From an uncultured Verrucomicrobiota bacterium (lineage in GTDB: Bacteria > Verrucomicrobiota > Verrucomicrobiia > Opitutales > Seribacteraceae): a stretch of 54,354 nt of DNA. Positions 26,478-54,354 of this stretch are shown in pieces (within the stretch, counting starts at the first letter, position 1; each line of letters starts with the position of its first letter). Both the position numbers and the translations under genes were made by a program. The notes below the pieces were generated by a model. It was given only the letters and a program-made list of their open reading frames with translations, did not search any database and was not told the DNA's origin. Where the stretch lies: contig CACHJU010000014.1 in assembly GCA_902580225.1 (NCBI GenBank), positions 1 through 54,354 on the forward strand. Reading direction: 5' to 3'.

Positions 26478-26555
26478 GTTAGGAATTATGCTAAGCAACA
26501 ACCGAGTGGCAAGACCTGATTTTTTTTAATCTTTCCGAGAAAATGTAATATAGAA

Positions 26556-29866: not shown

Positions 29867-29879
29867 TTGAATCAAATTA

Positions 29880-31724
29880 TCAGTTCCCAAAAAGACCAAC
29901 TGCATACGCTAGAAATCCTATTGTTCCAGCTACAAACCAAAAAGCGTAAGCATGAATTTTACCAACATAAAAAGCTTTTCCAATCAGAGCAAAAAGACCG
30001 GCAACACCGGCAGAGCCGCGAACCAATAAACCGGAAATGAACAACAATTCCATCACTTCGATAAAACGGACGAAGGGCTCCTGAATTCTTTTGACATAAA
30101 ATTCATAAATTTCGTCGATGAAAAGCTTACTTTTACAGAGAGCAAAAAAGATCGGCAATTTTTGTTCAAGCGGATCTTGATCCCCCACCCTTCCAAATAA
30201 ATTTTTAGCGGCTATTGCACCGATAACCCATGCAAAAGTTCCAAGTACAATCATCCATAAATGGTTCGACATCTCGGCTACCATTTCTATGTCGGGTATT
30301 AATGATTCAACAATGGCAATGGGAAATAGACTATGGTATCCTCCGAAAACTGAAAGAATCGAGAGAAGAATGAGAGGACCAGTCATTAAAGCTCCATTTT
30401 CATGGGCGTTGGAAGCTGAATCGGAACGGGATTCTCCCTCAAAAGTTATGAAGTAAAGCCGGAACATGTAAAACGCAGTTAAAATCGCACCAGAATACAG
30501 TAAGAAAAATAGAGGCATATTGGTATTATAGGCCGTTAGTAAAATAGCATCCTTGCTAAAGTAACCTGATAGAAAATTCACTCCGGAAATCGCCAATACA
30601 CCAACTAAAAAAGTGAGTGCAGTGACTGGCATTTTTTTTCTTAGTCCACCATACTTAAAGATATCTTGTTCATGATGACATGCATGAATGACCGAACCGG
30701 ATCCTAAAAACATGAGAGCTTTAAAAAATGCATGAGTCATCAAATGAAAAAGAGCAATTCCCGGTATACCAAGCCCAAATGCAGCAGTCATATAACCAAG
30801 TTGGGAAAGAGTGGAGTAGGCAAGGATTTTCTTAATGTCTCTTTGAACAAGAGCACAGAAACCGGCATACAAGCCCATTACTCCGCCGAGCACTCCAAAA
30901 AAGGAAAGGGCTTGCACAGTAAACATAAATTCAATTCGAATTAGAAGATAAATACCTGCGGCCACCATAGTTGCAGCATGAATTAAGGCGGAAACTGGAG
31001 TCGGTCCAGCCATGGCGTCAGGTAGCCAGACATGAAGGGGGAACTGGGCTGATTTACCAATAAAACCACAGGCTAAAGCCAAACCTAAAACGGTAGAAAC
31101 AATAGTCGGGTCAAAATCAACCAGGTCGGCTAATTCAACCAGATTTACAGTACCGGCAGCCCAATATGTCAGAACTATACCAATCAAAAATCCAAAGTCT
31201 CCCACACGGTTTACAATAAAGGCTTTCTTTGAAGCCTGAGCCGCTTCTTCGGTGGTAAAATAATGGGCAATTAGAAGATAGGAACTAAAACCAACTAATT
31301 CCCAAAAAACAAAAATCATAATCAGATTGTCTGCAATAGTAATTCCGATCATGGAAAACATGAACATCGACAATCCACCAAAATACCTGGCTTTGGACTC
31401 GTCATCAGCCATGTAACCAAGACTGAAGATATGTATGAGAAATCCTACAAAGGAGACCACAAAAAGAAGTAGACGGGCTGGGGCATCAATTAAGAAACCA
31501 AATCCCAACTCCCACTCAGACATTTTCAGCCAAGTAGTCTGCCAGTGAAAAACTTCATTTTCTCCATTAAAAATAATGAAAAGGGAAAAGACTAAAATTC
31601 CCCCGGAAGTGGCAACCGATAAAAGGGAAGCAATATTTCCACGTTTGCGAAAGAAAAACAGGGTGACCAATGCTGAAAGTAAAGGGAGAAGAAGCAGGCT
31701 AAATAGAACAGTCTCGGTTTCCAT
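29880..31724 (-). CDS. nuoL: NADH-quinone oxidoreductase subunit L
   Basis: The largest antiporter-like subunit of complex I, 614 residues, close to E. coli NuoL (613). Motifs are VFWELVGFSSYLLIAHYF (conserved glutamate), QFPLHVWLPDAMAGPTPVSA, LIHAATMVAAGIYLL and KKILAYSTLSQLGYM, followed by the FHLMTHAFFKALMFLGSG lysine helix. The C-terminus, with a long segment then a final hydrophobic helix, fits the lateral helix HL and its anchor. The start is 4 bases after the nuoK stop. Confidence 0.97.
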   Translation of the reverse strand: METETVLFSLLLLPLLSALVTLFFFRKRGNIASLLSVATSGGILVFSLFIIFNGENEVFHWQTTWLKMSEWELGFGFLIDAPARLLLFVVSFVGFLIHIFSLGYMADDESKARYFGGLSMFMFSMIGITIADNLIMIFVFWELVGFSSYLLIAHYFTTEEAAQASKKAFIVNRVGDFGFLIGIVLTYWAAGTVNLVELADLVDFDPTIVSTVLGLALACGFIGKSAQFPLHVWLPDAMAGPTPVSALIHAATMVAAGIYLLIRIEFMFTVQALSFFGVLGGVMGLYAGFCALVQRDIKKILAYSTLSQLGYMTAAFGLGIPGIALFHLMTHAFFKALMFLGSGSVIHACHHEQDIFKYGGLRKKMPVTALTFLVGVLAISGVNFLSGYFSKDAILLTAYNTNMPLFFLLYSGAILTAFYMFRLYFITFEGESRSDSASNAHENGALMTGPLILLSILSVFGGYHSLFPIAIVESLIPDIEMVAEMSNHLWMIVLGTFAWVIGAIAAKNLFGRVGDQDPLEQKLPIFFALCKSKLFIDEIYEFYVKRIQEPFVRFIEVMELLFISGLLVRGSAGVAGLFALIGKAFYVGKIHAYAFWFVAGTIGFLAYAVGLFGN

Positions 31725-31728
31725 GATT

Positions 31729-32037
31729 CTAATTTTTCAGGAGGGAAATATCTTCAGAGAAAACGCTCTGCCTTTTCTTGAATAACGCAACTAAAAGAGC
31801 CAGACCAACCGCCACTTCGGTTGCAGCCACAGTCATAATAAAAAAAACAAAAAGACTACCATCTAAATTCAGACTCGTTCTGGAGAAAGAAACCAAAGCC
31901 ACATTGACTCCGTTCAGCATGAGTTCAAGGGACATCAAAACCAGTAATAAATTACGACGAAGAACCACGCCCAGAAAACCGACCCCAAAAAGAAGAAAAG
32001 CTAAAACTAAAAAATGCTGTGGGGTTACAGATTCCAT
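31729..32037 (-). CDS. nuoK: NADH-quinone oxidoreductase subunit K
   Basis: A 102-residue, three-helix membrane subunit of complex I. Diagnostic sequence: FLLFGVGFLGVVLRRNLLLV followed by LMSLELMLNGVNVALVSF, containing the two membrane glutamate positions of the family (one clear in SLELML), then VAATEVAVGLALLVALFKK with the second conserved Glu. Length is standard. The ATG at 32037 is one base after the nuoJ stop. Confidence 0.96.
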   Translation of the reverse strand: MESVTPQHFLVLAFLLFGVGFLGVVLRRNLLLVLMSLELMLNGVNVALVSFSRTSLNLDGSLFVFFIMTVAATEVAVGLALLVALFKKRQSVFSEDISLLKN

Positions 32038-32038
32038 T

Positions 32039-32593
32039 TTAGGCGTCTAAATCCGGAGTGGACTTCTTACTCAATACAATCACTCCAACCATTGCCGCTA
32101 AAAGTAAAAATCCGGCCACCTGTAGAGGAAGCATGTACTTTGTGAATAATCCATAACCAAAGTTTTTCAAGGAAGTTGAAAAAACCAAAGAGTCCCCGGT
32201 AACCGATTCAGTAGATTGAATAGCCTTCCAATTCGAAAGGGATGCATCTCCAATTCCAGAAAATTGCAAAAGTAAAATAACCAAAATCCCCACCGATAAA
32301 CAACTGGCCAAACCCGATAGCATTTTGACCCTCGAAACTTTGCCACCCTCCGGACCGACATCAAGTAGCATAATAATAAAAAGGAAAAGTACCATGACTG
32401 CACCCGCATAGACCAAAACCTGCAAGATAGCCAAAAAGAAAGATTCAAGTAAAACAAAAAGGGCAGCCACACTGACGAGAGAAATAATCATGAACATAGC
32501 AGCAGAAACTGGATGGCGGGATATAACCATTAACAAACCGCCGCCAACCGAAAGGGTGGCAAAGAAATAAAAAAGTAAATCAACTGTATTCAC
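32039..32593 (-). CDS. nuoJ: NADH-quinone oxidoreductase subunit J
   Basis: A 184-residue, five-helix membrane subunit of complex I. Recognised by VISRHPVSAAMFMIISLVSV, FLAILQVLVYAGAVMVLFLF and IIMLLDVG, containing the conserved tyrosine/pi-bulge helix. The start is GTG at 32593; the first ATG downstream would remove the first helix. A 62-base gap to nuoI is the largest in this operon and shows no obvious terminator. Confidence 0.94.
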   Translation of the reverse strand: MNTVDLLFYFFATLSVGGGLLMVISRHPVSAAMFMIISLVSVAALFVLLESFFLAILQVLVYAGAVMVLFLFIIMLLDVGPEGGKVSRVKMLSGLASCLSVGILVILLLQFSGIGDASLSNWKAIQSTESVTGDSLVFSTSLKNFGYGLFTKYMLPLQVAGFLLLAAMVGVIVLSKKSTPDLDA

Positions 32594-32655
32594 AAATAAG
32601 AAATCAACTTTCCTGTCATAAAGGAAATCGTCAATAATAACATAGATTAATATGA

Positions 32656-33201
32656 CTAGTGATCATTGCCTTCGTCTTCAGCATTCTTCTTTTTATCCCA
32701 TTTATAGTGTTGATCAGGTAATGTGCCCCCAAGTTCATAGAGCTTTTCTTTTTTGTTAATCATCTCGTCTCGTGAATATCCCGATAAGGAATATTCATCC
32801 TGTAAGTAGATCGCTTCTTCAGGACAAACTTCCTGGCAATAACCACAATAAATGCAACGCAACATGTTGATCTCAAATTCTTGCGGGGCTTTTTCAACAT
32901 GCTCCCGATCATCTTCGCTCTCCGGAACTGCACCTGGGGTAATCCGAATTGCTTTTGGGGGACAAACAAATTCACACAATTGGCAAGAAACACATTTTTC
33001 CCGTCCATTCGGATCTTTAACCAAAGTTGGAATCCCCCTGTAATTCTTAGGAATATTTGGTTTTTCTTCCGGATACTGCAAAGTCACCTTTCCTTTGAAC
33101 ATATTTGAGAAAGTTGTTTTCAGTCCGGTTACAATTTGAGGAAGATAAGTCCTTTCCGAGAGAGAAAGGGGTTTGCGTTGAAGAACTACAGTTTTGGCCA
33201 T
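32656..33201 (-). CDS. nuoI: NADH-quinone oxidoreductase subunit I
   Basis: A 181-residue peripheral-arm subunit carrying the two [4Fe-4S] clusters N6a and N6b. Two ferredoxin motifs are visible: CVSCQLCEFVCPPKAI and CIYCGYCQEVCPEEAI. The N-terminal amphipathic region (FSNMFKGKVTLQYPEE) and the interval between motifs are typical. The ATG at 33201 lies 7 bases after the nuoH stop. Confidence 0.97.
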   Translation of the reverse strand: MAKTVVLQRKPLSLSERTYLPQIVTGLKTTFSNMFKGKVTLQYPEEKPNIPKNYRGIPTLVKDPNGREKCVSCQLCEFVCPPKAIRITPGAVPESEDDREHVEKAPQEFEINMLRCIYCGYCQEVCPEEAIYLQDEYSLSGYSRDEMINKKEKLYELGGTLPDQHYKWDKKKNAEDEGNDH

Positions 33202-33208
33202 GATAAGT

Positions 33209-34327
33209 TTATGCGGGCGGTTGATCTAACCAGGTTACCAAACAAACATAAAATATTAGATTGATCAAAGCGAGGGGAAGCAGCTTTGTCCAACCCAGAT
33301 TCATGACTTGATCGTACCGAAATCGTGGAAGTGTCCATCGTATCCATATAAAGAAAAAGATTAAAAAAATAGTTTTAGCTAAAAACCAGCCCACCCCGAT
33401 TAAACTACCAATCCATGTAGCTGGCCATGGATCACTCATCCAAGGCATAAAGTGCCATCCACCCAAAAAAACAATGGTGAAGATTGCTGAACCTACAACA
33501 ATGTGAGCGTATTCAGCAACAAAGAAAATTCCGAATTTGAAACCACCATATTCAGTGTGAAAACCACCAACTAAATCAGTTTCAGATTCTGGCATATCAA
33601 AAGGCAAACGATTGGTCTCCGCAAATAAAGCGATCAGGAAAATCAATGCAGATAATGGCTGGACTAGTAATAACCATGGGCTCTGTTTTTGAGAATCTAC
33701 AATATCAACTAGGCTTAAACCCATTGCTCCTGTGCCCGGTTCACTCACCCACAAAAAAATCGGAAGCAAAGACAAGCCCATCGCAAGTTCATAAGAGATC
33801 ATTTGAGCTGATGAGCGAATTCCACCAAGAAATGGATATTTACTATTCGATGACCAACCAGCCAGAACAATACCATAAACTCCGAGGGAGGAAACCGCCA
33901 AAATAAAAAGAATACCCACCTCCAAATTAGCGAGCATTAAAGGAAAAGATTCTCCATTGTCGGCAAAAAATTCTCCAAATGGAAGAACTGTCATTGTAGT
34001 CAAAGCAGGAACCAGAGCTACAATAGGAGCAAGATTGTAATAAAATTTGTTTACATGCCCGGGTATGATTTCTTCCTTGAATAAAAATTTTAGTCCATCT
34101 GCAAGAGGTTGAAACATACCCATCCCTTTTAAAAATTTTCCAGCAAAAGGTACATATCCGACAAGAGGCAAAACAGTACGGTTAGGCCCGACTCGACCTT
34201 GCATCCAGGCACTGACTTTTCTTTCCGCCAATACAGAGTAACCAGCCATGGTCATAACCGCTCCGATCATAAGTAAGGCAAATAAGACCTTTAATCCAAT
34301 CATGAACAGCATTTCAAAATCAAACAT
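33209..34327 (-). CDS. nuoH: NADH-quinone oxidoreductase subunit H
   Basis: A 372-residue, eight- to nine-helix membrane subunit next to the quinone chamber. Signatures are LAERKVSAWMQGRVGPNRT, GWSSNSKYPFLGGIRSSAQM, FAETNRLPFDMPESETDLVG and GFHTEYGGFKFGIFF. Its ATG follows the nuoG stop with no gap. Slightly longer than E. coli NuoH (325) through loops in the N-terminal half. Confidence 0.97.
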   Translation of the reverse strand: MFDFEMLFMIGLKVLFALLMIGAVMTMAGYSVLAERKVSAWMQGRVGPNRTVLPLVGYVPFAGKFLKGMGMFQPLADGLKFLFKEEIIPGHVNKFYYNLAPIVALVPALTTMTVLPFGEFFADNGESFPLMLANLEVGILFILAVSSLGVYGIVLAGWSSNSKYPFLGGIRSSAQMISYELAMGLSLLPIFLWVSEPGTGAMGLSLVDIVDSQKQSPWLLLVQPLSALIFLIALFAETNRLPFDMPESETDLVGGFHTEYGGFKFGIFFVAEYAHIVVGSAIFTIVFLGGWHFMPWMSDPWPATWIGSLIGVGWFLAKTIFLIFFFIWIRWTLPRFRYDQVMNLGWTKLLPLALINLIFYVCLVTWLDQPPA

Positions 34328-36034
34328 TTAAATCTTACTTTTCTGAAGTTGTTTAAGAGGAGAAAAATGCATAGCTTTTTTTTCTATAAAAGGAAGGGAA
34401 TTCCATTTTGATCCATCTAATTGGAGACCATCCCCGGGTATTTTTGAAAAGATTAATCCGTGCAATGGGTTGGTTCTTGATTTGCTCATTTGTTTCCAAA
34501 TTGATGCCAGATCGGAAGATTGTTCTGCGTCCTCACATAAAGCATTAATAAGCGAAGCAATAACATGAAGATCAGGAAGTAGTCCAACCGGACCTGGTAT
34601 TGCCTGTTTGAAAGACTGTAAACGAAAACTTCGGTTGATGAAAGAACCGGATTTTTCAAAAGAAGTGAGGGTTGGTATGACTACATCGGAAAAATCTGCG
34701 GTTGCATTTTGATGAGTACCTAAAAAGACAATCGGAATGGATTTTAGATCTTCCAGATCAACACCTGATTCGGACAAATCCTCCCCAATGACAAGGAGCG
34801 CATTAACTTGTTTTTTCTGTATCGAGATGGAAAGATCAGATAACTGATCCGATGGATACTTATTCGAAAAGCCAGTCACCAGATTACCCCGCAGGTTTGG
34901 AGTCCGGTCAGCAGAAAGAAGAATTCCATCATCTTTTCCAAAATGGCCTCTTAAAAACTTTTTTGCTTTAAGATTTTTGGAAAGTTTATTAAGCAAATAC
35001 TGCTCTTCAACTGAAGATTTACAAGAACCAACCACCCCAAGCTTTTTATCTTTAAACATTTCACTTGCGGCTGAAATAGCTTCGGTCAGACTAGAGGCGT
35101 TTCCAGAAACTGAAGCAGATAACAGACGGCTATCGGAACTAACTTTTTTGTACAACACACGACCACTATCAGTCATCCAGCTATCGTTAACCGAATCATT
35201 CCTCCGTGGAGTGATACGATGAATTTTACCTTCGCGACTGGAGACCAAAATATTGGACCCCGCACTACTCTCCACACAAATACTGGGAGATTCCTTTAGA
35301 AACCAAACCCTCATTTTGAACCTGAAATCAGTACTGGTAAGAGCCCCAACCGGACAAAGGTCAACCGTATTGAGAGAGTAATTATTGGACAATTCCTTTC
35401 CCGGAAAACAGGTCAGCGTGGAAAAACTTCCACGATCGACAAAGCCAAGCACATCATCATCAACCACTTCTTGGCAAAAACGAATACAACGGGAACATAA
35501 AATGCATCTTTCGTCATCTAATGTCACTCTAGGTCCAAGCTTCGTTCTTTTGGGTTTAACATTTTTGCGTTCAACATAGCGGCTGTACCCACGACCGTAA
35601 TCAGTAGCAAATTCCTGCAAACGACATTCACCAGCCTGATCACATATGGGACAGTCAAGAGGATGATTCACCAAAAGAAATTCCATAATTCCCTCCCTTG
35701 ATTCAGTCACCATTGAAGACTTGGTTTTCACATGCATACCTGGAGAAACATTAGTCCCGCATCCTATTACTGGCTTTGGAACCCAACCAATTTTTTGTAT
35801 CCCATTCTCATCTAAAACCGCTTCTCCAGTGGCCCGGTCTCTCATGGGCGTACCCATTTCAACAAGACACATACGACAATTCCCGGCCACGCTTAGTTGT
35901 GGATGATAACAGTAATGAGGTACTTCAGTACCATGAATTCCAGCAGCTTCAACTAGATTAATACCTGCCGGGACTTCAACTTCTTTTCCGTCAAGAATTA
36001 TATTTATCGTAGATGGTTTTCCGTTACTGATCAT
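34328..36034 (-). CDS. nuoG: NADH-quinone oxidoreductase subunit G (short)
   Basis: A 568-residue iron-sulfur subunit of the NADH-oxidising arm. The N-terminal [2Fe-2S] ferredoxin has HYCYHPQLSVAGNCRMC; the His/Cys [4Fe-4S] N5 site is around HPLDCPICDQAGECRLQ; the N4 site is in CILCSRCIRFCQEV with CPVGAL. At the place of the extra N7 cluster of E. coli and Thermus only one Cys remains (SPSICVESSAGS), so N7 is absent. The C-terminal molybdopterin-oxidoreductase-like domain is much shorter than in E. coli NuoG (908 residues) and weakly conserved. The ATG at 36034 is 9 bases after nuoF. Confidence 0.93.
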   Translation of the reverse strand: MISNGKPSTINIILDGKEVEVPAGINLVEAAGIHGTEVPHYCYHPQLSVAGNCRMCLVEMGTPMRDRATGEAVLDENGIQKIGWVPKPVIGCGTNVSPGMHVKTKSSMVTESREGIMEFLLVNHPLDCPICDQAGECRLQEFATDYGRGYSRYVERKNVKPKRTKLGPRVTLDDERCILCSRCIRFCQEVVDDDVLGFVDRGSFSTLTCFPGKELSNNYSLNTVDLCPVGALTSTDFRFKMRVWFLKESPSICVESSAGSNILVSSREGKIHRITPRRNDSVNDSWMTDSGRVLYKKVSSDSRLLSASVSGNASSLTEAISAASEMFKDKKLGVVGSCKSSVEEQYLLNKLSKNLKAKKFLRGHFGKDDGILLSADRTPNLRGNLVTGFSNKYPSDQLSDLSISIQKKQVNALLVIGEDLSESGVDLEDLKSIPIVFLGTHQNATADFSDVVIPTLTSFEKSGSFINRSFRLQSFKQAIPGPVGLLPDLHVIASLINALCEDAEQSSDLASIWKQMSKSRTNPLHGLIFSKIPGDGLQLDGSKWNSLPFIEKKAMHFSPLKQLQKSKI

Positions 36035-36043
36035 AAAGAAAAA

Positions 36044-37396
36044 TTATATTAGCTGCAATTTCGGTTTACTGCTTCCGTGTTTGGCTTTGTCTTGAAATTC
36101 ACCCCTAAATTTGGCAATGAAACTTTGAGTCGGCCAGGAAGCCGCTTCCCCAAAAGCACAGATGGTTCGTCCTTCAATTTGATTAGCCACGGAAAGAAGT
36201 AAGTCCGCATCTTCTTTTCTGGCATCTCCGGAACACATACGCTTAGTAATTTTTCTCATCCATAAGGAGCCCTCCCGACATGGGGTACATTGACCGCACG
36301 ATTCGTGAGCATAAAAAGCATTAATGTTAGCCATGGCCTCAACCATGTCAACCGTGTCGTCCATAACTATAATACCTCCAGAACCCGACATACTACCCAC
36401 TGAGGCGGGGCCATCAAAATCGAGTGGAATATCATCGATCCCCCAATCAAATTCAGTTCCATCTTTCAATTTACCTGTGAACCTTTCATCAGCCCGTAAA
36501 ACTTTAGAGGATGACCCACCAGGGATAACTGCTTTTAATGTACGTCCGGGCAGTAAACCACCACATATATCATAAATCATCTCGCCCAATGTCAGGGCCC
36601 CACACTCAAATTCGTAATAACCAGGTTTTTTTACATGTCCAGAGACACACCAAATCCGCGTACCAGTATTATTGGGTTTGCCAATTTTAGAAAACGCTTC
36701 CCCTCCCATTTGCATAATGTGTTTAACATTACAAAGGGTTTCAACATTATTAACGATTGTAGGACATTGGTAAAGACCGAGCACAGCTGGAAAATAAGGA
36801 GGCTTAATTCTAGGATTTGGTCTTTTTCCCTCCAGAGACTCAATAAGACCGGTTTCCTCACCGCAAATATATGCACCCGCCCCCCTGTGAACAATTAAAT
36901 CACAAGAGTAAGAAGATCCTAAGATTTTATCTCCACAGAACTTTTTGGCTTTTGCTTCAGCAATGGCTTCTTCCAAAATACGTGCACCTTCAAAAAATTC
37001 CGCACGAATGTAAATAAAAGCCTGTTTTGCCTGAATTGCATATGCTGCAATCATCATACCCTCGATTAACTGATGAGGATCTTTGTACATGATTTGTCTG
37101 TCTTTAAATGTCCCAGGTTCGGATTCATCTGCATTGCAAATCAAGTAAATGGGCTTTCCCGACTTACGATCGAGAAACTTCCACTTCATACCGGCAGGGA
37201 AACCAGCTCCTCCCCTCCCCCGAACGCCCGACTTTAAGACCTCTTCGCCAATTTCATCAGGCTTCATTTTAATAGCCTTTTTCAACATTTTATAACCGCC
37301 ATTTTTTAAATAACAGTTCATTTTATTAGAATAACCGGGATCGTCGGCATATTTTAAAATGATCCGTCTCTCTTTAGGTATATTTTTTTTGATCAT
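36044..37396 (-). CDS. nuoF: NADH-quinone oxidoreductase subunit F
   Basis: A 450-residue subunit that binds NADH and FMN and carries the [4Fe-4S] cluster N3. SGVRGRGGAGFPAGMKW is the FMN/NADH glycine loop; YICGEETGLIESLEGKRPNP and the cluster motif ESCGQCTPCREGSLWM with its distant fourth Cys in GRTICAFGEAASWP are intact. The start overlaps the nuoE stop as ATGA. Two forms are known in bacteria; this one resembles the standard complex I type rather than a hydrogenase-linked type because of its operon. Confidence 0.97.
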   Translation of the reverse strand: MIKKNIPKERRIILKYADDPGYSNKMNCYLKNGGYKMLKKAIKMKPDEIGEEVLKSGVRGRGGAGFPAGMKWKFLDRKSGKPIYLICNADESEPGTFKDRQIMYKDPHQLIEGMMIAAYAIQAKQAFIYIRAEFFEGARILEEAIAEAKAKKFCGDKILGSSYSCDLIVHRGAGAYICGEETGLIESLEGKRPNPRIKPPYFPAVLGLYQCPTIVNNVETLCNVKHIMQMGGEAFSKIGKPNNTGTRIWCVSGHVKKPGYYEFECGALTLGEMIYDICGGLLPGRTLKAVIPGGSSSKVLRADERFTGKLKDGTEFDWGIDDIPLDFDGPASVGSMSGSGGIIVMDDTVDMVEAMANINAFYAHESCGQCTPCREGSLWMRKITKRMCSGDARKEDADLLLSVANQIEGRTICAFGEAASWPTQSFIAKFRGEFQDKAKHGSSKPKLQLI

Positions 37397-37950
37397 TTTT
37401 TCTTAGTTGTTTTGGTTATTGGTAAGTCGGTCACCAAACCATTTTCATAACTTACAAATTCTTTAGATGTGTTTAACTTTTCCTTAACCAACAAGTCAGC
37501 AAATTTTTCTGCCTTTTTACCTTCTACATTTTCATAGGTTTCTTCCCCAACCATAACCACCGGTCCTTCTCCACAATCCGCAAGGCATTCCATGAACTCA
37601 ATTGAAAACTCACCGTCCTCTCGGACATGTCCTTCTTTCACACCTAATCTTTCTTCCAATACCTTACAGGTTCCATAGGATCCTCGAAGTGCACAGGGTA
37701 AAGTCCGACAAACCCGTACATGCTTTTTACCCCAAGGAGTTTCACGAAGCATCGGATAAAAAGTAATTAATTCCTTAATATTAATAGGCTCAAGTTCTAG
37801 TTTTTCCGCAATCCATGTGCAGGAATCATCCGAGATTGCGCCTAGTTCATCCTGAACTAAATGAATGACCATCAGTGCAGCACTTCGTTTTTCAGGATAT
37901 TTGGGAATTAAATCCTCAATTTTAGAAAGAGTGTGTTCTGTAAGTTCCAT
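37393..37950 (-). CDS. nuoE: NADH-quinone oxidoreductase subunit E
   Basis: A 185-residue thioredoxin-like subunit holding the [2Fe-2S] cluster N1a. The four cysteines are in VCRTLPCALRG (C-x4-C) and ECLADCGEGP (C-x3-C). I set the start at the ATG at 37950 (MELTEHTLSKIEDLI), 7 bases after the nuoD stop. The longer frame to 37983 would need TTG and overlap nuoD. A Lys-rich tail (KTTKKK) ends the protein. Confidence 0.95.
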   Translation of the reverse strand: MELTEHTLSKIEDLIPKYPEKRSAALMVIHLVQDELGAISDDSCTWIAEKLELEPINIKELITFYPMLRETPWGKKHVRVCRTLPCALRGSYGTCKVLEERLGVKEGHVREDGEFSIEFMECLADCGEGPVVMVGEETYENVEGKKAEKFADLLVKEKLNTSKEFVSYENGLVTDLPITKTTKKK

Positions 37951-37957
37951 ACGATAA

Positions 37958-39199
37958 CTAACGATCACATTCGCCCATAACAAAATCCAGACTTCCTAAA
38001 ATTACGGTAATGTCGGAAAGAAAATGTCCGGGGGCGAGTTTTTCTAGAATACTGAGGTTACAAAAACTGGGAGCCCGAATTTTCATTCGATAGGGAACCC
38101 CACCACCCTTTGAGACAACATAAAATCCAAGTGCTCCTTTTGGATTTTCCGCCTCGAAATACACTTCACCGGCAGGAATTTGAGGACCCTCAGTAACGAT
38201 CATAAAGTTTTGAATCAATTCTTCCATACTGGTTAGAATTTTATCTTTGGGCGGAGCAAAAATTTTCTTTGCGTCTTCAGCATACCAAGCACCAGATGGA
38301 AAATCTTTAATAACCTGTTTAATAATACGAATGCTCTGAGAAACCTCTTCGATACGAACGAGGTATCTGTCGTAGCAATCACCTCGGGTGCCTATAGGAA
38401 CATCAAATTCATACTGTTCATATCCCGAGTAGGGCTTGTCTTTTCGTAAGTCTAGATCAATTCCAGTTGCCCGCAAATTAGGCCCGGTCAAACCGTAAGC
38501 GAGTGCATCCTCCTTGGAAATTTCTCCTATCCCTTCAGTCCGGTCAAGAAAGATTCGATTGCGGGTAAGCAATTTTTCAACCTCTCCAATTGCCTTTGGT
38601 AATTCATCCACAAATTTCTCTACCCGCTCAAGCCAACCATCAGGAATATCACGGGCAACCCCACCGATGCGGGTGTAACTAGTTGTAAAACGGGCTCCAG
38701 TTAGTTCTTCAAAAAGAGTATATAGCTTTTCACGCTCGGTGAAAGTGTACATAAAAGGAGTCCATGCACCAGCATCCATTCCAAATACACCCATGCCTAA
38801 CAAATGACTTGATATGCGGGCCATTTCACAAACCAACACACGAATGGCCTGACAACGGGGAGGAATTTCAATGTTAGTCAATTTCTCGACAGTTAAAGCA
38901 TATGCGACATTGTTAGCCAAGGGTGCCAAATAATCCAATCGATCAGTGTAAGGAACAAACTGATTGTATGTCATATTTTCAGCAATTTTTTCATCACCTC
39001 GATGGAGATAGCCAAGAACAGGTTCACATTTTTCAATCAAGTCACCGTTTAATTCCATGATTAGACGAAGCACTCCGTGAGTGGTTGGGTGAGAAGGACC
39101 TACATTTAGGGCCATTTTATCACCATTTATCTGACTTTTAGCCTCGGCACCCCGGGCTCCAATATCCCCGACAGAAATTTCTTTGGTTGTTGTGCTCAT
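37958..39199 (-). CDS. nuoD: NADH-quinone oxidoreductase subunit D
   Basis: A 413-residue, 49-kDa-type subunit forming part of the quinone-binding site. Motifs are NVGPSHPTTHGVLRLIMELN, GYLHRGDEKIAENMTYNQF and the C-terminal LGSLDFVMGECDR, which ends in the family's usual DxxxGExDR form. The start is the ATG at 39199 (MSTTTKEISVGDIG), overlapping the nuoC stop as ATGA. The longer TTG alternative at 39226 is unlikely. nuoC and nuoD are separate here, not fused as in E. coli. Confidence 0.96.
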   Translation of the reverse strand: MSTTTKEISVGDIGARGAEAKSQINGDKMALNVGPSHPTTHGVLRLIMELNGDLIEKCEPVLGYLHRGDEKIAENMTYNQFVPYTDRLDYLAPLANNVAYALTVEKLTNIEIPPRCQAIRVLVCEMARISSHLLGMGVFGMDAGAWTPFMYTFTEREKLYTLFEELTGARFTTSYTRIGGVARDIPDGWLERVEKFVDELPKAIGEVEKLLTRNRIFLDRTEGIGEISKEDALAYGLTGPNLRATGIDLDLRKDKPYSGYEQYEFDVPIGTRGDCYDRYLVRIEEVSQSIRIIKQVIKDFPSGAWYAEDAKKIFAPPKDKILTSMEELIQNFMIVTEGPQIPAGEVYFEAENPKGALGFYVVSKGGGVPYRMKIRAPSFCNLSILEKLAPGHFLSDITVILGSLDFVMGECDR

Positions 39200-39813
39200 A
39201 GAGGTTTTTCCTTTCTTTCCGTCCAACTCTCATCTTTTGCCCTCGGTTCAGAATCACTAATGGGACCCGAACTGGCGGAAACAAAAGGTCCACCCATCAT
39301 GGGAGCCGGTTCTACTGACGCCTGAGTAACTTCAACCACATCATCTGCAGGCAAAGGCGTGTCAATCCCAGCTAAAGGAAATTCCTTGCGCAGAGGGAAG
39401 TAAGGATACTCATCCCACATCAAAATACGCTTGAGATTGGGATGATTTGTAAAGTGGATTCCGAACATATCGAAAGTCTCTCTTTCATGCCAGTTGGCGG
39501 CCGGGTAAATTTCAGAAATCGATGGCATAAAGGGCTTATCATTATCTGTGCAAAGAGAGTGAAGACGGACGTAGCCGCGATGAACGAGAGAATACAAGTG
39601 CATAACCGTTGAAAATCGGCATTCCTCCCCCTCTCCATGATCAATAGCGGTTAAATCAATTAAAAGTTCAAACCCTTGATTATCTCGCATTGATTTACAA
39701 AAAGAAACCAAATCTTTGCTCGGACACTCAACAGTAAACCAGTCAACAGAATCCCGTTGGACGAGGTAAGAATGCTCTTTCAACAAACTCTTTTTGAAAT
39801 CCTCGTCGATCAT
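39196..39813 (-). CDS. nuoC: NADH-quinone oxidoreductase subunit C
   Basis: A 205-residue, 30-kDa-type peripheral subunit. Family core: IYPAANWHERETFDMFGIHF, then NHPNLKRILMWDEYPYFPLR and KEFPLAG. After the core, a tail of about 45 residues is rich in Pro, Ser and acidic residues (EPAPMMGGPFVSASSGPISD) and looks disordered. The ATG at 39813 is 4 bases after the nuoB stop. Confidence 0.95.
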   Translation of the reverse strand: MIDEDFKKSLLKEHSYLVQRDSVDWFTVECPSKDLVSFCKSMRDNQGFELLIDLTAIDHGEGEECRFSTVMHLYSLVHRGYVRLHSLCTDNDKPFMPSISEIYPAANWHERETFDMFGIHFTNHPNLKRILMWDEYPYFPLRKEFPLAGIDTPLPADDVVEVTQASVEPAPMMGGPFVSASSGPISDSEPRAKDESWTERKEKPL

Positions 39814-48487: not shown

Positions 48488-51400
48488 TCAGTTTGACATT
48501 CCTTCCCTGACGATCTGCAACCAACGTTCATCCCGGTAATGATAAAAGAGTATTGTTTCCTGACTTGCCCCGTAAAAATAAAGCCAGCCCGCAGAAGTAT
48601 TCTGATATAAAAATGGATAAAATATTTCATCGGTCCAGAGCCAGCCCAGTTGTTCTTTCCAAAACCAGACCCCGTTCTTTCCACTTGCCATTGGATACAA
48701 CCACCCCAGTTCGGAATGCATAATCCAGGATCCATTGGCATCATTTATATAAAACGAGCCAAACCACGGACTGGTCCACCAGTTCGCGGCATTACCGGGT
48801 TGAGCCTTGGCCCAGGTGGGTCCGCGGGCATGCACTTGAGTCACAAAATCCTTCACCAACCCATAACCCACTCCCTCATCATTAATCGCATAAGTTCGGT
48901 AAAAATATTTCTTATCTTTTTCCAGTTCCATCATCATGGCCTCAAAACTATCATAAGCATCCAAAAATCCTCGCTCCCGAATGACCCCTCTTGTATTTAA
49001 ATTCGGATTTGGATCCGTGGATACAAGCATACCAATTTGTATAAGATCAATGCTCGAACCCTTATCCAATAATTTACCCGGCAGAATAGCCTCCTGAAAT
49101 CCAACATCCACCGGATCGCCCGTCTCCACAATGGGAATGAAGGCATCCACGACCTGAATAGTAATGTTTTGGTCGAGATAAGCACCCAAATGATCAGTAA
49201 CCCGAAGCCCAACTGTATGGCTGGAATTACTTTCAAAATCAAATTCCTGCTTTGTGAGCATGGTACCGTTAGGATCAATAGAGAAGAACTCTGCTCCCGT
49301 CGCATTAGTGATAAAGGAATATTGATAAATCCCGGTACCATTTGGATCATCAAAATCGATCGTTTTTAAATGCCCCACCACCGTTCCGACCGGAAGGTTT
49401 TCTTCCACCCGATTTGGAAAAAGGGAGATTTGAGTGGGTGCCCGGTTAGGCAATGAATTCGGATCCAGCGGATCAGAACCGTAGGCAATCTCATCATTAT
49501 CTGAGAAACCATCATTATCATCATCAGGGTCATAGGAATTTTCTAAACCGTCCCCGTCCGGATCCTCCCATTGATTAAAGACCTGTATATTTAAGACTTC
49601 CTCCCGGCTTCCATTGAAATCATCCATCACCCTCGCCCGGATGGAATGACTCGCATTTTGTTCAAAATCGAAAACCACCGCGGTTCGCAAGACACCCCTT
49701 ACATCAACCGTAAAGAATTGATTCCCACTCGATCCCACCCCGTTAATTAAAGAGTAGTGTACTACATCACCCTCCGGATCGACCGCATTCAATTTCCCCA
49801 CCACGGTTCCAATCGGTTGATTCTCAGTCAAACTGGCAAACTGAATGGTGATAGCCCCTGGAACTTGATTATCAAACACATCAATCAAAGTCACCGTGAA
49901 GTTACCCTCCACAGTCGCGCTATATTCATCTCGGGCTTGCACCCGGATAGAATAGGTCGAGGCATTGGTCTCATAGTCGAAAGTGGTTGCGGTCTTGAGC
50001 GTACCGTTGGTCTCGAGAATAAAGAGGGAATTGTTTCCGTCTCCTACCCCGCTTACCAAGTGGTAGGTCAGTGTGGAGTTGGCATCGGATTCGGTCGCAA
50101 AGAATTGACCAACCACCGTGCCAATGAGTTGGTTTTCTGGAATGGTCAGAGGAGCGGACGAATTTAAATCACTCAAAGAAGAAGCCTCGGCCAAAAGGGT
50201 AATTTCAATATTCCCGTGATTTAAATGATGTCCTGCAATGCCCATTGGATCGAAACCGATATTGTAAGAACCACCGCCTCCTCCAGTGTTACTTACTCCA
50301 CCGGCACCTCCGGAATATCCCCCTCCTCCACCACCATCGTGTAAAGAGCCATATAAATTTCCATCCTTGTATTTTCCACCGCCTCCGCCACCAAAACCAC
50401 CATCTCCACCATATGTTCCGGCAGTCTTGTATCCACCCTGCGCACCATTTACAAAGCTCTTTCCTCCGGTTGCCTGTCCACCATTTTGCCCATCGGTTAG
50501 AAAACCGCCTCCACCACCGGCATCAGCTCCGTTTCCACCATTACCCTGCATGCCACCTTGGTAAGAATTATTGGATGTTAAACCATTTCCTGTGATTGGA
50601 GCATGAGCTGCACTGTTCAAGGAATCTTTATTCCCTCCATGTCCACCCCCACCACCTGCAATCAACATGGGCACACCGTTTATCACGAAGAAACTTCCAC
50701 CGCCTCCTCCTCCACCGGGTCCAGCGGTACTTGTTCCCATCTGACCAATCGCCATGGTAACCGTATCATTTTGCTCGAGGGTAAATTTACCCGCTACCAT
50801 AGCCCCTTTTCCACGATTCCCTGACGACAAACTTCCTGCTGCTCCAAAAGCTCTTACATAATAATCACCCCTAAACGGTGGAGTCCATTGCTGGATTCCC
50901 TGAAGGGAGGTAACCTTACCCGCCAAAGGTGTGTTTGCGTAAGCTGAATCCAATTGTGCCTGCGTTGGACCATTCTGCCCGGTAGCTGAAGCATTGGTGA
51001 AAGTCCAACTCGTTTCATTTGCATCCACAACCTGTACAGAATTCAGTCTACTTGTACTCAAATTATTTGAATAGGATGCAGTTAAATTTAAATTATAAAT
51101 ATTATCCCCACCCTGATCCAATGGGAGTTCAAAATCTGGAAGGCCAATAAAACGAAAACCCTGATTTCCAACCAGTTCAAACCACGAAGCGTCCGAGCCT
51201 CCAATCGTAAAGGTGAGGTTGCCATCCGATTGCTGACTAAAAGGCATCGGTATGACATTCCGGGTATTTTCAGTTACTATCGTCTGAGTTGAACCATTTC
51301 CATCAAATCCCAGATAAATCGGATATTCCAGCACATCGGTCAGCGTCACCGTAAAATTACCCTCGACGGTGGCGTTAAACTCATCCTCGGCTTGGACCCG

Positions 51401-54354
51401 AATGGTGTAAGTCGAGGCATTGGTTTCGTAATTGAAAGTGGTGGCGGTCTTGAGGGTGCCGTTGGACTCGAGGTTGAAGAGTGAATTGTTCCCGTCCCCT
51501 ACCCCGCTTACCAAGTGGTAAGTCAAAGTGGCGTTGGCATCGGGATCAGTGGCGTTGAAATCGGCTACCAGAGAGCCGATTGCTTGGTTTTCTGCGATGG
51601 TCAGGGGAGTAAGTGCATTGAGGTTGGTGGGCGGAATATTAACTTGTTGGTAACCGACACGAAAGCCAAGATTAAGGTAGCGGTCATTGGGAGAATAACC
51701 CGCACCGCCCATTCTTTTAGCCGACCTCAGAGCTTCCGCGGGATAATTAAAGCCACCACCCCGTCTAATTTTGGAAGAACCCGAGCTAGGTCCAGTGGGA
51801 TCCGAAACACTGGCTCCACTGGAGGCTCCACCCCACCAATCACGAATCCATTCCGAAACGTTTCCGTGCATATCATAAAAGCCCCATGGATTAGCCGCGT
51901 ACTTCCCAACTTGGCGGCTATTGCCAATACCGCTTTGGTCATAGTTGGCGTTCGAAGCGGCGATGCTGTTACCCCACGAATAGATTGTTACCGTTCCCGC
52001 CCGGCAGGCGTATTCCCATTGCGACTCCGTCGGTAAAACATAACTCCAACCAGCGGGTAGGCGGCCTGCCATATGCTCGAACGAGTTCAGCCGGGATAGA
52101 AAAATCTGGGCATCATTCCAGGAAACTTTCTCCACCGGATGGTTCGGGTTACCTGAATATATACTCGGTGTTGCACTCAAACCATTGCCATAACCCGTCA
52201 TCACCGATTGGTACTGAGCTTGCGTTACCTCGTACTTGCCCAAGTAAAAACCTTTGGTCAGGGTCACATTGTGCTCGGTCTCGATCGGGTCGCGGTTCGC
52301 TTCGCTAGTCGGGCTTCCCATCGTAAAAGTTCCCGGTTCCACCCAGATCATTTCGAGATTGGCGGCGGAGGAAGCGAAATGTGGGGGTCTAGATGGCTGG
52401 TACATTGCATTGACATTCGCCGTGGGAGAGGAAGAAAGGCTTTCGGAATAGCCTCCACCATCTGTGTAAGAAACCTGCAAGCTGATGGCGGCACCTTGAT
52501 CGGCAGTTGAAAGAAGGTGGCTTGTTCCGCCGGTCGTTCCACGAAGAAGCTCGCCAAGTATCCCATCTCTTACAAACCAGGCGACACTCGAATAATGGGA
52601 GGAACTCGCATACAAATTACGCCCATCAGGAGATAATGAAAAACTCCAAATTCCATTCAATAAATTGTCTCCATTCTTGAGGGCCACATAGGAATTCCTG
52701 TGAACCAGGCCACCGGTGGAAGAATTAATATCAAACAAATTAACAGAGGAGTTTCCGTCGGTCCGTCCGCCTGTGCAGTAGAGGTGTTTCCCGTCTGGGC
52801 TGGTTTCCAAGCTACTGGTTATGTTAAGGCTGTTGATTCCCGGGTCTCCGTTTCTAATGATGTTGACATAGGTCAAGCTTCCGGTGCTGGCGTTTCGGTC
52901 GAACCAGGTAACTGAATGATCATGCTGACTGCTCGCATAAAGAGTGGAACCGCTGGGATTCGATGCGATCGAAGTGACCGCCCCGAGTCCGTCCACGCCG
53001 TTGGCTCCGTCACGAACCAAGCCCAGGTAGGCCAAGGCTCCGGTTGACTCGTTCCGGTCGAACCAGGCGATGGACGAATCCACGGCTCCGCTGACATAGA
53101 GAAACTCACCATCGTTAGACAATAGAAGATCTCTTGCTCCATCCAAGCCATCGACTCCGTTGACTCCGTCTTTCAGGAAGCCCAACCAAGTCAAGGCACC
53201 GGAAACGGGGTCTCGCTGGTACCAACTTAGGGCGTCGTCATCATAAGCGGTGATGTAAATGTGCGTGCCCTCGGGAGAAACCACCAATTTTCCTGCACTG
53301 TACAAACCATCTGCTCCTCCTTGGTCATCTTTGATCACACCCTGCCAAGTGAGAGCTCCGGAACTGGCGTTGCGATCATACCAACTGATGGCATTGCCTC
53401 CCCAACCGGATGAAATATAGACATGCTCGCCACCCGGAGAAAAGCCAAATCCGGCGACCGAAGTCAAACCATCCACTCCGTTCACTCCCTGTGTCAATTT
53501 CCCACCAAATTGTAGATTACCCGAGTGGGGGTCGCGTTTGAACCAACTGATCGTACCATCCGAATATCCGCCGACATAAACATGGTAACCGTCCGGGGAT
53601 ACGGCCGAATTCCTGGATCCGACCATTCCAGAAACTCCATTCTCCCCGCTTTTCAGATCTCCACCCAATACAATCGGGCTTCCATTCCGTTGCCATTGGT
53701 AAGATATAATCCCCATTCCGTCCGGGTCAGTTAGTGTATTCGATGCAGTCAGGGTCTGACCCACAATTGGCGAACCAATAAGGGTGACCGACCCGGTGGC
53801 CGATTCATTCAAGTTCGTTAAGGTCACCGTGAAATTACCCTCGACCGTGGCGTTGTGCTCGTCCCTGGCTTGCACCCGGATGGAATAAGTCGAGGCGTTG
53901 GTTTCGTAATCGAAAGTGGTGGCGGTCTTGAGCGAACCATTGGTCTCAAGGGTAAAGTGGGAATTGTTACCATCCCCTGCCCCGCTTACCAAGTGGTAAG
54001 TCAGGATGGCATTGGCATCGGGATCGGTGGCGTTGAAATCGGCTACCAGGGAACCCACGGGTTGATTCTCGGCAAAGGTCAACGGGGCGGTAACATTAAG
54101 ATCGGTGGGATAGGAATTACTAGACTGCACAAGCGAAGTTCCCGCCGAGCTTATGTTGTGATCAAAGTTTCCCCCATCCGTGTAACTAGCGACCACGGTA
54201 ATCACGGAACCGACATCGGCGGCAGTCATGATGTAATTGGCATCCGTCGCGAGGCCATAGAACAAAGCACCAGTAATCGAGTTGCGGGTGAACCAACTCA
54301 CCGCATGGTCATTAGCAGCCGTGACATACGCGTAATTTCGGTCCGCGGAGAGAG
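48488..54354 (-). CDS. Giant multi-domain surface protein, 5' end beyond window
   Basis: At least 1954 residues; the frame is open to the right edge, so the start lies outside. Reading N to C in minus-strand coordinates: last blade of a beta-propeller and the second half of an Ig-like repeat (54354-54130); cadherin-like repeat (54110-53823); first half of an Ig-like repeat, a seven-bladed propeller (53672-52550) and the second half of that repeat (to ~52395); FGE/SUMF1-fold domain (52350-51650); cadherin-like repeat (51631-51345) and a beta-rich segment; ALK/LTK-type Gly-rich domain (50880-50230); cadherin-like repeats (50174-49570); calcium-binding DPDGDGLENSYDPDDDNDG (49560-49450); another cadherin-like repeat (to ~49140); fibronectin-III-like segment; Trp-rich C-terminus (48830-48488). 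It is probably an extracellular calcium-dependent adhesin or matrix protein. Confidence 0.85.
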   Translation of the reverse strand, partial: LSADRNYAYVTAANDHAVSWFTRNSITGALFYGLATDANYIMTAADVGSVITVVASYTDGGNFDHNISSAGTSLVQSSNSYPTDLNVTAPLTFAENQPVGSLVADFNATDPDANAILTYHLVSGAGDGNNSHFTLETNGSLKTATTFDYETNASTYSIRVQARDEHNATVEGNFTVTLTNLNESATGSVTLIGSPIVGQTLTASNTLTDPDGMGIISYQWQRNGSPIVLGGDLKSGENGVSGMVGSRNSAVSPDGYHVYVGGYSDGTISWFKRDPHSGNLQFGGKLTQGVNGVDGLTSVAGFGFSPGGEHVYISSGWGGNAISWYDRNASSGALTWQGVIKDDQGGADGLYSAGKLVVSPEGTHIYITAYDDDALSWYQRDPVSGALTWLGFLKDGVNGVDGLDGARDLLLSNDGEFLYVSGAVDSSIAWFDRNESTGALAYLGLVRDGANGVDGLGAVTSIASNPSGSTLYASSQHDHSVTWFDRNASTGSLTYVNIIRNGDPGINSLNITSSLETSPDGKHLYCTGGRTDGNSSVNLFDINSSTGGLVHRNSYVALKNGDNLLNGIWSFSLSPDGRNLYASSSHYSSVAWFVRDGILGELLRGTTGGTSHLLSTADQGAAISLQVSYTDGGGYSESLSSSPTANVNAMYQPSRPPHFASSAANLEMIWVEPGTFTMGSPTSEANRDPIETEHNVTLTKGFYLGKYEVTQAQYQSVMTGYGNGLSATPSIYSGNPNHPVEKVSWNDAQIFLSRLNSFEHMAGRLPAGWSYVLPTESQWEYACRAGTVTIYSWGNSIAASNANYDQSGIGNSRQVGKYAANPWGFYDMHGNVSEWIRDWWGGASSGASVSDPTGPSSGSSKIRRGGGFNYPAEALRSAKRMGGAGYSPNDRYLNLGFRVGYQQVNIPPTNLNALTPLTIAENQAIGSLVADFNATDPDANATLTYHLVSGVGDGNNSLFNLESNGTLKTATTFNYETNASTYTIRVQAEDEFNATVEGNFTVTLTDVLEYPIYLGFDGNGSTQTIVTENTRNVIPMPFSQQSDGNLTFTIGGSDASWFELVGNQGFRFIGLPDFELPLDQGGDNIYNLNLTASYSNNLSTSRLNSVQVVDANETSWTFTNASATGQNGPTQAQLDSAYANTPLAGKVTSLQGIQQWTPPFRGDYYVRAFGAAGSLSSGNRGKGAMVAGKFTLEQNDTVTMAIGQMGTSTAGPGGGGGGGSFFVINGVPMLIAGGGGGHGGNKDSLNSAAHAPITGNGLTSNNSYQGGMQGNGGNGADAGGGGGFLTDGQNGGQATGGKSFVNGAQGGYKTAGTYGGDGGFGGGGGGKYKDGNLYGSLHDGGGGGGYSGGAGGVSNTGGGGGSYNIGFDPMGIAGHHLNHGNIEITLLAEASSLSDLNSSAPLTIPENQLIGTVVGQFFATESDANSTLTYHLVSGVGDGNNSLFILETNGTLKTATTFDYETNASTYSIRVQARDEYSATVEGNFTVTLIDVFDNQVPGAITIQFASLTENQPIGTVVGKLNAVDPEGDVVHYSLINGVGSSGNQFFTVDVRGVLRTAVVFDFEQNASHSIRARVMDDFNGSREEVLNIQVFNQWEDPDGDGLENSYDPDDDNDGFSDNDEIAYGSDPLDPNSLPNRAPTQISLFPNRVEENLPVGTVVGHLKTIDFDDPNGTGIYQYSFITNATGAEFFSIDPNGTMLTKQEFDFESNSSHTVGLRVTDHLGAYLDQNITIQVVDAFIPIVETGDPVDVGFQEAILPGKLLDKGSSIDLIQIGMLVSTDPNPNLNTRGVIRERGFLDAYDSFEAMMMELEKDKKYFYRTYAINDEGVGYGLVKDFVTQVHARGPTWAKAQPGNAANWWTSPWFGSFYINDANGSWIMHSELGWLYPMASGKNGVWFWKEQLGWLWTDEIFYPFLYQNTSAGWLYFYGASQETILFYHYRDERWLQIVREGMSN
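49890..50174 (-). repeat. Cadherin-like repeat unit, copy C
   Basis: About 285 bases encoding a cadherin-like module with core TYHLVSGVGDGNNSLFILET, FDYETNASTYSIRVQARDEY and EGNFTVTLIDV. It is near-identical at the nucleotide level to copies at 51345-51631 and 53823-54110. Confidence 0.85.
51345..51631 (-). repeat. Cadherin-like repeat unit, copy B
   Basis: The second of three near-identical copies. It differs mainly at third codon positions and a few substitutions (FNYETNASTYTIRVQAEDEF). It directly follows the FGE-fold domain in the protein. Confidence 0.85.
52550..53672 (-). repeat. Seven tandem beta-propeller blades
   Basis: Seven repeats of about 50-54 residues share the pattern xxSPDGxxxYV...S-hydrophobic-xWFDRNxSTGxLxxLG...DGxNGVDGL, as in lactonase/YVTN-type propellers. 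Examples: LLLSNDGEFLYVSG, SSIAWFDRNESTGALAYLG. Seven blades would close a ring without outside strands. Confidence 0.8.
53823..54110 (-). repeat. Cadherin-like repeat unit, copy A
   Basis: The rightmost of three near-identical copies (TYHLVSGAGDGNNSHFTLET, FDYETNASTYSIRVQARDEH). It lies between the truncated propeller at the window edge and the second propeller. Confidence 0.85.

Follow-up and report, generated by a model that had tools for sequence, protein, structure and literature searches.

An Ig-like domain split in sequence by a seven-bladed beta-propeller in a surface-type protein of an uncultured Verrucomicrobiota bacterium

The gene at the right edge of the contig

The stretch of DNA analyzed here (hereafter the window; 54,354 nucleotides) is the whole of contig CACHJU010000014.1, from assembly GCA_902580225.1 of an uncultured Verrucomicrobiota bacterium of the family Seribacteraceae; the assembly has 115 contigs and is 66.6% complete, with a 2.36 Mb genome. 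The contig ends at 54354, and the gene that runs into this end on the minus strand encodes a surface-type protein in which the two halves of an immunoglobulin (Ig)-like domain lie on either side of a seven-bladed beta-propeller. Judging from its domains, the product is probably a large secreted surface protein or adhesin. The open reading frame (ORF) and the parts of this unit, called the inner cassette below, are the following (aa, amino acids).

48488..54352, minus strand: ORF of the surface-type protein, 1954 aa, 5' end open, N-terminus cut off by the contig end
53672..53794, minus strand: Ig-like domain, N-terminal half, aa 187-227 (profile positions 1-41)
52535..53671, minus strand: inserted seven-bladed lactonase-type beta-propeller, aa 228-606 (blade profile, PF10282, AlphaFold2)
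52409..52534, minus strand: Ig-like domain, C-terminal half, aa 607-648 (profile positions about 43-84)

The Ig-like domain is discontinuous in sequence

A previous sequence-only reading of the window had proposed a propeller nested in an Ig-like repeat, and the peptides on which it relied were found where it had placed them on the minus strand (GSVTLIGSP, 53768-53794; ISYQWQRNG, 53681-53707; HLLSTADQG, 52493-52519). The nesting is borne out by profile, alignment, structure model and recurrence. An Ig profile of 84 positions, iterated from complete repeats in retrieved loci, matched the N-terminal half at aa 187-227 (model 1-41, 46.9 bits) and the C-terminal half at aa 595-647 (model 37-84, 28.0 bits); the second match reaches slightly into the last blade, the trimmed C-terminal half alone corresponding to model 45-84. 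The halves are separated by 368 aa, a gap in which the same profile detected no complete Ig domain. In Pfam no Ig family scored above its own cut-off on the window protein, and the AIR9 A9 Ig domain (PF23197) fell short of its threshold (12.9-19.0 vs 27.5 bits) in the window protein, in relatives and in single repeats where listed. Domain annotation names the propeller and skips the broken Ig, so that proteins of this kind can be mis-drawn as simple domain chains.

When the two halves were fused without the propeller they gave, in line with the earlier proposal, one alignment of 90.5 bits over profile positions 1-84, and a full-length match was obtained only with both halves present. As a control, the N-terminal half from the window was fused to each of 200 stretches of 48 aa drawn at random from the same protein, with a median of 54.8 bits, compared to 55.7 bits for the N-terminal half alone. 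The sole controls scoring above 63 bits (89.1 and 86.5) were two stretches that had both landed on another Ig C-terminal half, located at the right edge of the window (see below), while two further controls, both from aa 1698, spanned model 1-77 at 56.0 bits with no gain over the N-terminal half alone.

Complete Ig repeats led to the same picture. In three modes of MAFFT, all of 16 rows, hand-chosen from other bacterial and viral contigs, fell on both halves and were interrupted by a single long gap, 377-380 columns wide. The break is located at model 41-42/43 in the window and in two relatives (G019 and G025); beside it, after model position 37, 17 of 113 distinct complete Ig domains carry the natural insertions of greatest length, with up to 15 residues.

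The inserted propeller

A blade profile found seven blades between the Ig halves (aa 236-286, 288-341, 342-394, 395-447, 448-500, 501-554 and 560-602), the number that the sequence-only reading had given. The propeller matched PF10282 with 84.8 bits vs a curated cut-off of 21.7; among the fold matches listed, 6-phosphogluconolactonases were the closest to its models, and sequence similarity to solved lactonases was weak (best E value 1e-5). The nested units of three related genomes have comparable blade counts, with seven each in G019 (L044) and G008 (L045) and 14 in G025 (L047), the last of which fits two propellers in a row (2 x 7); two weak and short blade-profile matches inside cadherin domains of L044 were left uncounted.

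A tree of 22 rows was built from six propellers of the inserted type (two of them from G025) and 16 standalone lactonase-like proteins of relatives, and the inserted type was split from the standalone one with a support of 100/100. Recent capture of a housekeeping lactonase is thus unsupported. The inserted set is not exclusive to propellers nested in this Ig, since that of L041 (G017), found in a long protein outside this Ig domain, groups with it. The latter propeller belongs to a frame of 4535 aa (G017:C11) and lies near GxGY-type repeats, another host context.

Structure models

AlphaFold2 was run on the nested unit with two alignments. With three nested sequences (run 1) the mean predicted local distance difference test (pLDDT) was 83.0 and the predicted TM-score (pTM) 0.81, with a confident propeller; after adding the 16 complete Ig rows (run 2) these values were 91.8 and 0.87, a pTM dominated by the propeller, and the block means of the Ig halves reached 77-93. 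Hence both folds were modelled together when Ig rows were present, as the nesting proposal implied, and the flanks were weak without them. In run 2 strands were assigned to model residues 7-10, 18-23 and 35-40 before the propeller and 429-431, 440-449, 454-458 and 464-466 after it; the propeller itself displayed a repeating strand pattern, with one spot at residues 376-379 below 50 pLDDT. From this strand order, and from the resemblance to phage Ig-like domains, we infer the strand names, by which the propeller would sit between strands C' and E, in the connection after the edge strand C'.

Recurrence in related genomes

Besides the window, the nested unit is present in G008, G019 and G025 within a set of 57 related genomes; the contigs concerned are sequence-identical to contigs of an Opitutales metagenome-assembled genome (MAG), an Opitutia MAG and Verrucomicrobia bacterium TMED56. 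Within the family, 6 of 42 genomes contain paired half-matches; in four of them the halves enclose propellers, in G034 and G036 an insert of ~210 aa. All six units, once their halves were fused, gave one alignment over most of the Ig profile (90.5, 100.3, 94.3 and 77.0 bits for the propeller units; 100.7 and 104.0 bits for the other two), and the inserts carried naturally at this Ig site range from ~210 to 750 residues. The unit of G008 was missed by our automatic pair filter because the profile stretched its C-terminal match upstream; its trimmed Ig halves scored 51.9 and 40.1 bits, and a second profile, built on entire nested units (those of the window, G019 and G008), covers positions 1-458 in it. 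Five near-complete Ig matches of similar strength, four of them from G025 and one from G031, also came up in the family search, along with numerous short and weak ones.

Order-wide (372 genomes, E value up to 1e-6, up to 14 candidates per genome), no further pair was found among the strong matches listed, and among the matches listed those below an E value of 1e-10 from outside the family (G309, G291, G094 and G308) were all near-complete. Phylum-wide (387 genomes, a set overlapping the former; E value up to 1e-9) there were matches in three genomes, split solely in that of the window. Three of 20 loci from a collection of genome contigs were nested, L044, L045 and L047, which are the contigs of G019, G008 and G025; in the DNA covered, the remaining 17 had no split pair according to the pair filter, which also missed G008. 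No split was found in the plasmid matches from Methylosinus and Bradyrhizobium.

The ~210-aa inserts are LamG-like. They interrupt the same Ig family near the protein start in G034 (L042:7036-7923) and G036 (L017). The insert of G036 passes the Laminin_G_3 cut-off (27.9 vs 27.6), the unit of G034 remains below it (24.0 vs 27.6), and Laminin_G_3 was not matched, at an E value up to 1, when a longer part of this G034 protein was searched. Since the two inserts are 83% identical they were counted as one event. Their break, at model 37/39, falls in the turn before strand C', whereas the propeller break follows C' (model 41-42/43); with two neighbouring break sites, the propeller and the LamG-like domain are probably separate insertions.

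A stalk domain of another family is also interrupted. In L044 (G019:C48, aa 154-519) a cadherin domain is matched in two parts, model 1-40 with 24.4 bits and model 44-95 with 54.8 bits, and the 274 aa that separate them hold an FGE-sulfatase/SUMF1-like match (aa 198-463); this was the sole such pair reported by the filter among 425 ORFs.

A probable second cassette at the right edge

The order of a blade followed by an Ig C-terminal half recurs at the right edge of the window, as the earlier reading had noticed from the peptides AVSWFTRNS (54278-54304) and YIMTAADVG (54209-54235), both located as claimed.

54257..54352, minus strand: partial last propeller blade of the second cassette, aa 1-32 (blade profile)
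54128..54256, minus strand: Ig C-terminal half of the second cassette, aa 33-75 (profile 43-84, 27.5 bits)
53813..54100, minus strand: cadherin domain between both cassettes, aa 85-180 (Pfam and cadherin profile)

The blade and Ig profiles found here one partial last blade and the C-terminal half; the N-terminal half would lie beyond the contig, and no further match that could complete the cassette was found in the genome's own assembly (66.6% complete). A second cassette is likely. The 76-aa segment is 63% identical to its counterpart in G019, 61% to G008, 39% to G025 and 34% to the inner cassette. Taken separately, the C-terminal half is 71% and 67% identical to those of G019 and G008, the blade beside it 55% and 52%; identity with the C-terminal halves of the inner cassette and G025 is 33% and 26%. 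The claim that a cassette was duplicated in this gene therefore holds as far as the presence of a second one is likely, but the two are strongly diverged, and with 34% identity a recent duplication within the gene is unsupported.

Other features of the gene and of the window

Pfam reported in the window protein five cadherin stretches, an FGE-sulfatase/SUMF1-like domain, PF10282 in three pieces and a TSP3 repeat. The features that follow the inner cassette are listed below.

51656..52354, minus strand: FGE-sulfatase/SUMF1-like domain after the inner cassette, aa 667-899 (Pfam)
51332..51622, minus strand: cadherin domain, aa 911-1007 (cadherin profile)
49877..50167, minus strand: cadherin domain, aa 1396-1492 (cadherin profile)
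49574..49834, minus strand: cadherin domain, aa 1507-1593 (cadherin profile)
49145..49417, minus strand: cadherin domain, aa 1646-1736 (cadherin profile)
48491..48820, minus strand: aromatic-rich C-terminal domain, ~95-110 aa (24 matches in its own genome, itself included)

Amid the cadherin domains of this ORF lies a glycine-rich segment (aa 1200-1380, window ~50213-50755, minus strand). The matches of the aromatic-rich C-terminal domain have E values between 6.5e-77 and 9.8e-8, the frames that carry them are 39 to 3222 aa long, and two of the 24 matches contain internal stops; the domain scans of the window proteins listed no family for positions 48491-48820. It is a candidate for a lineage-specific anchor, sorting domain or secretion tag.

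Another contig, C67 (L144, G000:C67:1-5741), carries many RCC1-like repeats and an FGE-like domain, both recognized by eye, as well as a cadherin truncated where the contig begins. Starting inside a similar cadherin, it might hold the upstream sequence of the window gene, although no link between them was found. Elsewhere in the window, respiratory complex I genes (28235-39226, minus strand; Pfam on six of them) are unrelated to the surface-type protein, and a 1926-aa protein (20721-26501, minus strand) is largely coiled-coil-like by eye.

A proposed propeller head on a stalk, and the alternatives

The Ig-like domain is discontinuous in sequence, the insertion site is defined, seven blades lie within it, the arrangement recurs and the AlphaFold2 model is consistent with it. 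We regard it as highly probable that a complete seven-bladed propeller is inserted in one loop of the Ig-like domain and displayed as a putative ligand-binding head on a stalk. Both ends of a propeller lie together; with the ends side by side, an insertion in a loop leaves the host domain undisturbed, and both folds can form. The stalk would consist of cadherin and Ig-like domains, and the chain would start the Ig strands, exit through the propeller and come back for the remaining strands. Anchored at two points, the propeller would form a side branch off the stalk and may project sideways at the cell surface. Its most likely role would be that of a binding head by which the bacterium attaches to particles or cells; glycans or some other surface polymer might be what it binds.

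Several observations weigh against this interpretation. Divergence is greatest in the C-terminal halves of the inner cassette (28.0 bits) and G025 (16.1 bits), as scored in the whole proteins, and nesting was seen in just 6 of the 42 family genomes, of which both LamG cases, at 83% identity, count as one. In run 1, lacking complete Ig rows, the Ig halves were weak (block means 38-67), and the alignment of run 2 already carries homology to complete Ig domains. The pairing of the halves was judged from strand pattern, pLDDT and pTM only, and none of the solved structures among the best 50 of 1753 and 1672 Foldseek matches exceeded a TM-score of 0.60 over the whole model.

The nested propeller could be an active lactonase or other enzyme on a stalk instead of a binding head, as its PF10282 score (84.8 bits) and its top fold matches, 6-phosphogluconolactonases, would suggest. 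We consider this unlikely, given the separation of the inserted propellers from the 16 standalone lactonase-like proteins (22 rows, 100/100) and the weak similarity to solved lactonases (best E value 1e-5).

Less probable still is that the flanks are degenerate half-domains, remnants without an Ig fold, and the propeller an ordinary tandem domain. The low flank pLDDT of the first model would agree with this, as would the weak C-terminal matches of the inner cassette and G025, to which the right-edge C-terminal half is 33% and 26% identical. Against it, the fused halves reached 77-104 bits in six out of six units, the model with Ig rows was confident, and the right-edge C-terminal half is at least as conserved with respect to G019 and G008 (71% and 67%) as the adjoining blade (55% and 52%).

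Because in the window the right-edge C-terminal half and the inner N-terminal half are parted by a single cadherin, the order could also be read as a circularly permuted Ig (C-terminal half, cadherin, N-terminal half) around that cadherin, with propellers free between such units. This very improbable reading was rejected since relatives carry the split unit first in the protein: in G025 (L038) and G034 (L042) it comes first after an N-terminal hydrophobic segment (by eye), with the N-terminal half leading and no C-terminal half before it, and the complete repeats in L038 run from N to C; G008 (L045, 5' end open) has kelch repeats and a cadherin ahead of its split unit.

Finally, an assembly error or chimera that joined a propeller gene to an Ig gene, conceivable in a fragmented assembly (115 contigs, 66.6% complete) whose contig ends within a repeated unit, was rejected as having next to no likelihood, because recurrence in other genomes makes chance and mis-assembly unlikely (G008, G019 and G025 show a matching arrangement and break) and the frame is continuous through both junctions, with an even G+C content (51.2, 51.8 and 53.2%) that also gives no sign of recent foreign insertion.

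Having preferred a propeller inserted in an Ig loop, we may ask whether the stalk domains of this family are general sockets, with unrelated folds (one propeller, two propellers or a LamG-like domain in the Ig; an FGE/SUMF1-like domain in one cadherin) plugged into fixed loops. This is a tentative extension that we consider slightly less likely than not, and the near identity of both LamG cases lowers its likelihood together with that of the inserted head itself. If true, these would be branched surface proteins with heads exchangeable in evolution without disturbing the stalk.

Comparison with known systems

The profile of complete repeats matched seven PDB sequences at an E value up to 1, none of them an RTX adhesin as judged by entry names. 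Phage Ig-like domains (Hoc, 5vf3; decoration proteins, 5lxk and 8zvi; a tail protein, 9c2d) are sequence relatives of the uninterrupted repeat and, unlike the window's domain, have no inserted domain in the three alignments checked. An archaeal surface-layer protein (PDB 1l0q) resembles the window protein in joining a YVTN propeller to a PKD sandwich domain at the surface; by its title they are in tandem, not nested, and its TM-score on the whole model was 0.51-0.52. In the adhesin BapP of Pseudoalteromonas tunicata a propeller is predicted along with cadherin-like and bacterial Ig repeats (PMC12153261), but there the propeller is five-bladed and N-terminal, with the repeats after it and no insertion in a repeat. 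The pilus adhesins RrgA and GBS104 have non-contiguous D1 and D2 domains with a vWA-type D3 inserted between their parts (PMC7893114); they belong to Gram-positive pili, and the insert is vWA rather than a propeller.

The closest parallel lies in the RTX adhesins FrhA (Vibrio cholerae), AhLap (Aeromonas hydrophila) and MpIBP (M. primoryensis), whose Ig-like domains are split by projected ligand-binding domains (PMC10865825, PMC12077191). These share with the window protein a sequence-discontinuous Ig-like domain with a whole domain between its halves, and their inserts are projected off the axis of a very long multi-domain surface protein. The inserts named there are carbohydrate-binding (PA14/CBM), peptide-binding, sugar-binding and RTX-roll domains, different from that of the window, and the word 'propeller' is absent from the main text of PMC12077191. 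Furthermore, no strict RTX nonapeptide (GGxGxDx[LIFYV]) occurs in the 1954 aa of the window protein, whose N-terminus is missing; two looser forms of the motif match, at aa 1236 and aa 1272. The C-terminal domain of the protein is likewise a different one.

The sequence-only reading knew of no described domain with this nesting. Split Ig-like domains are already known from the RTX adhesins, while a propeller as the insert of one was not found in the titles and opening abstract lines of the open-licence papers that the searches listed. What appears to be new, within that same coverage, is the propeller as insert, in an Ig repeat of another type and in Verrucomicrobiota. The Ig insertion site may be of use in engineering proteins and in looking for binding heads among uncultured bacteria. 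If the split domains of RTX adhesins and of Verrucomicrobiota share no ancestry, the use of a divided stalk domain to hold out a head would have arisen more than once.

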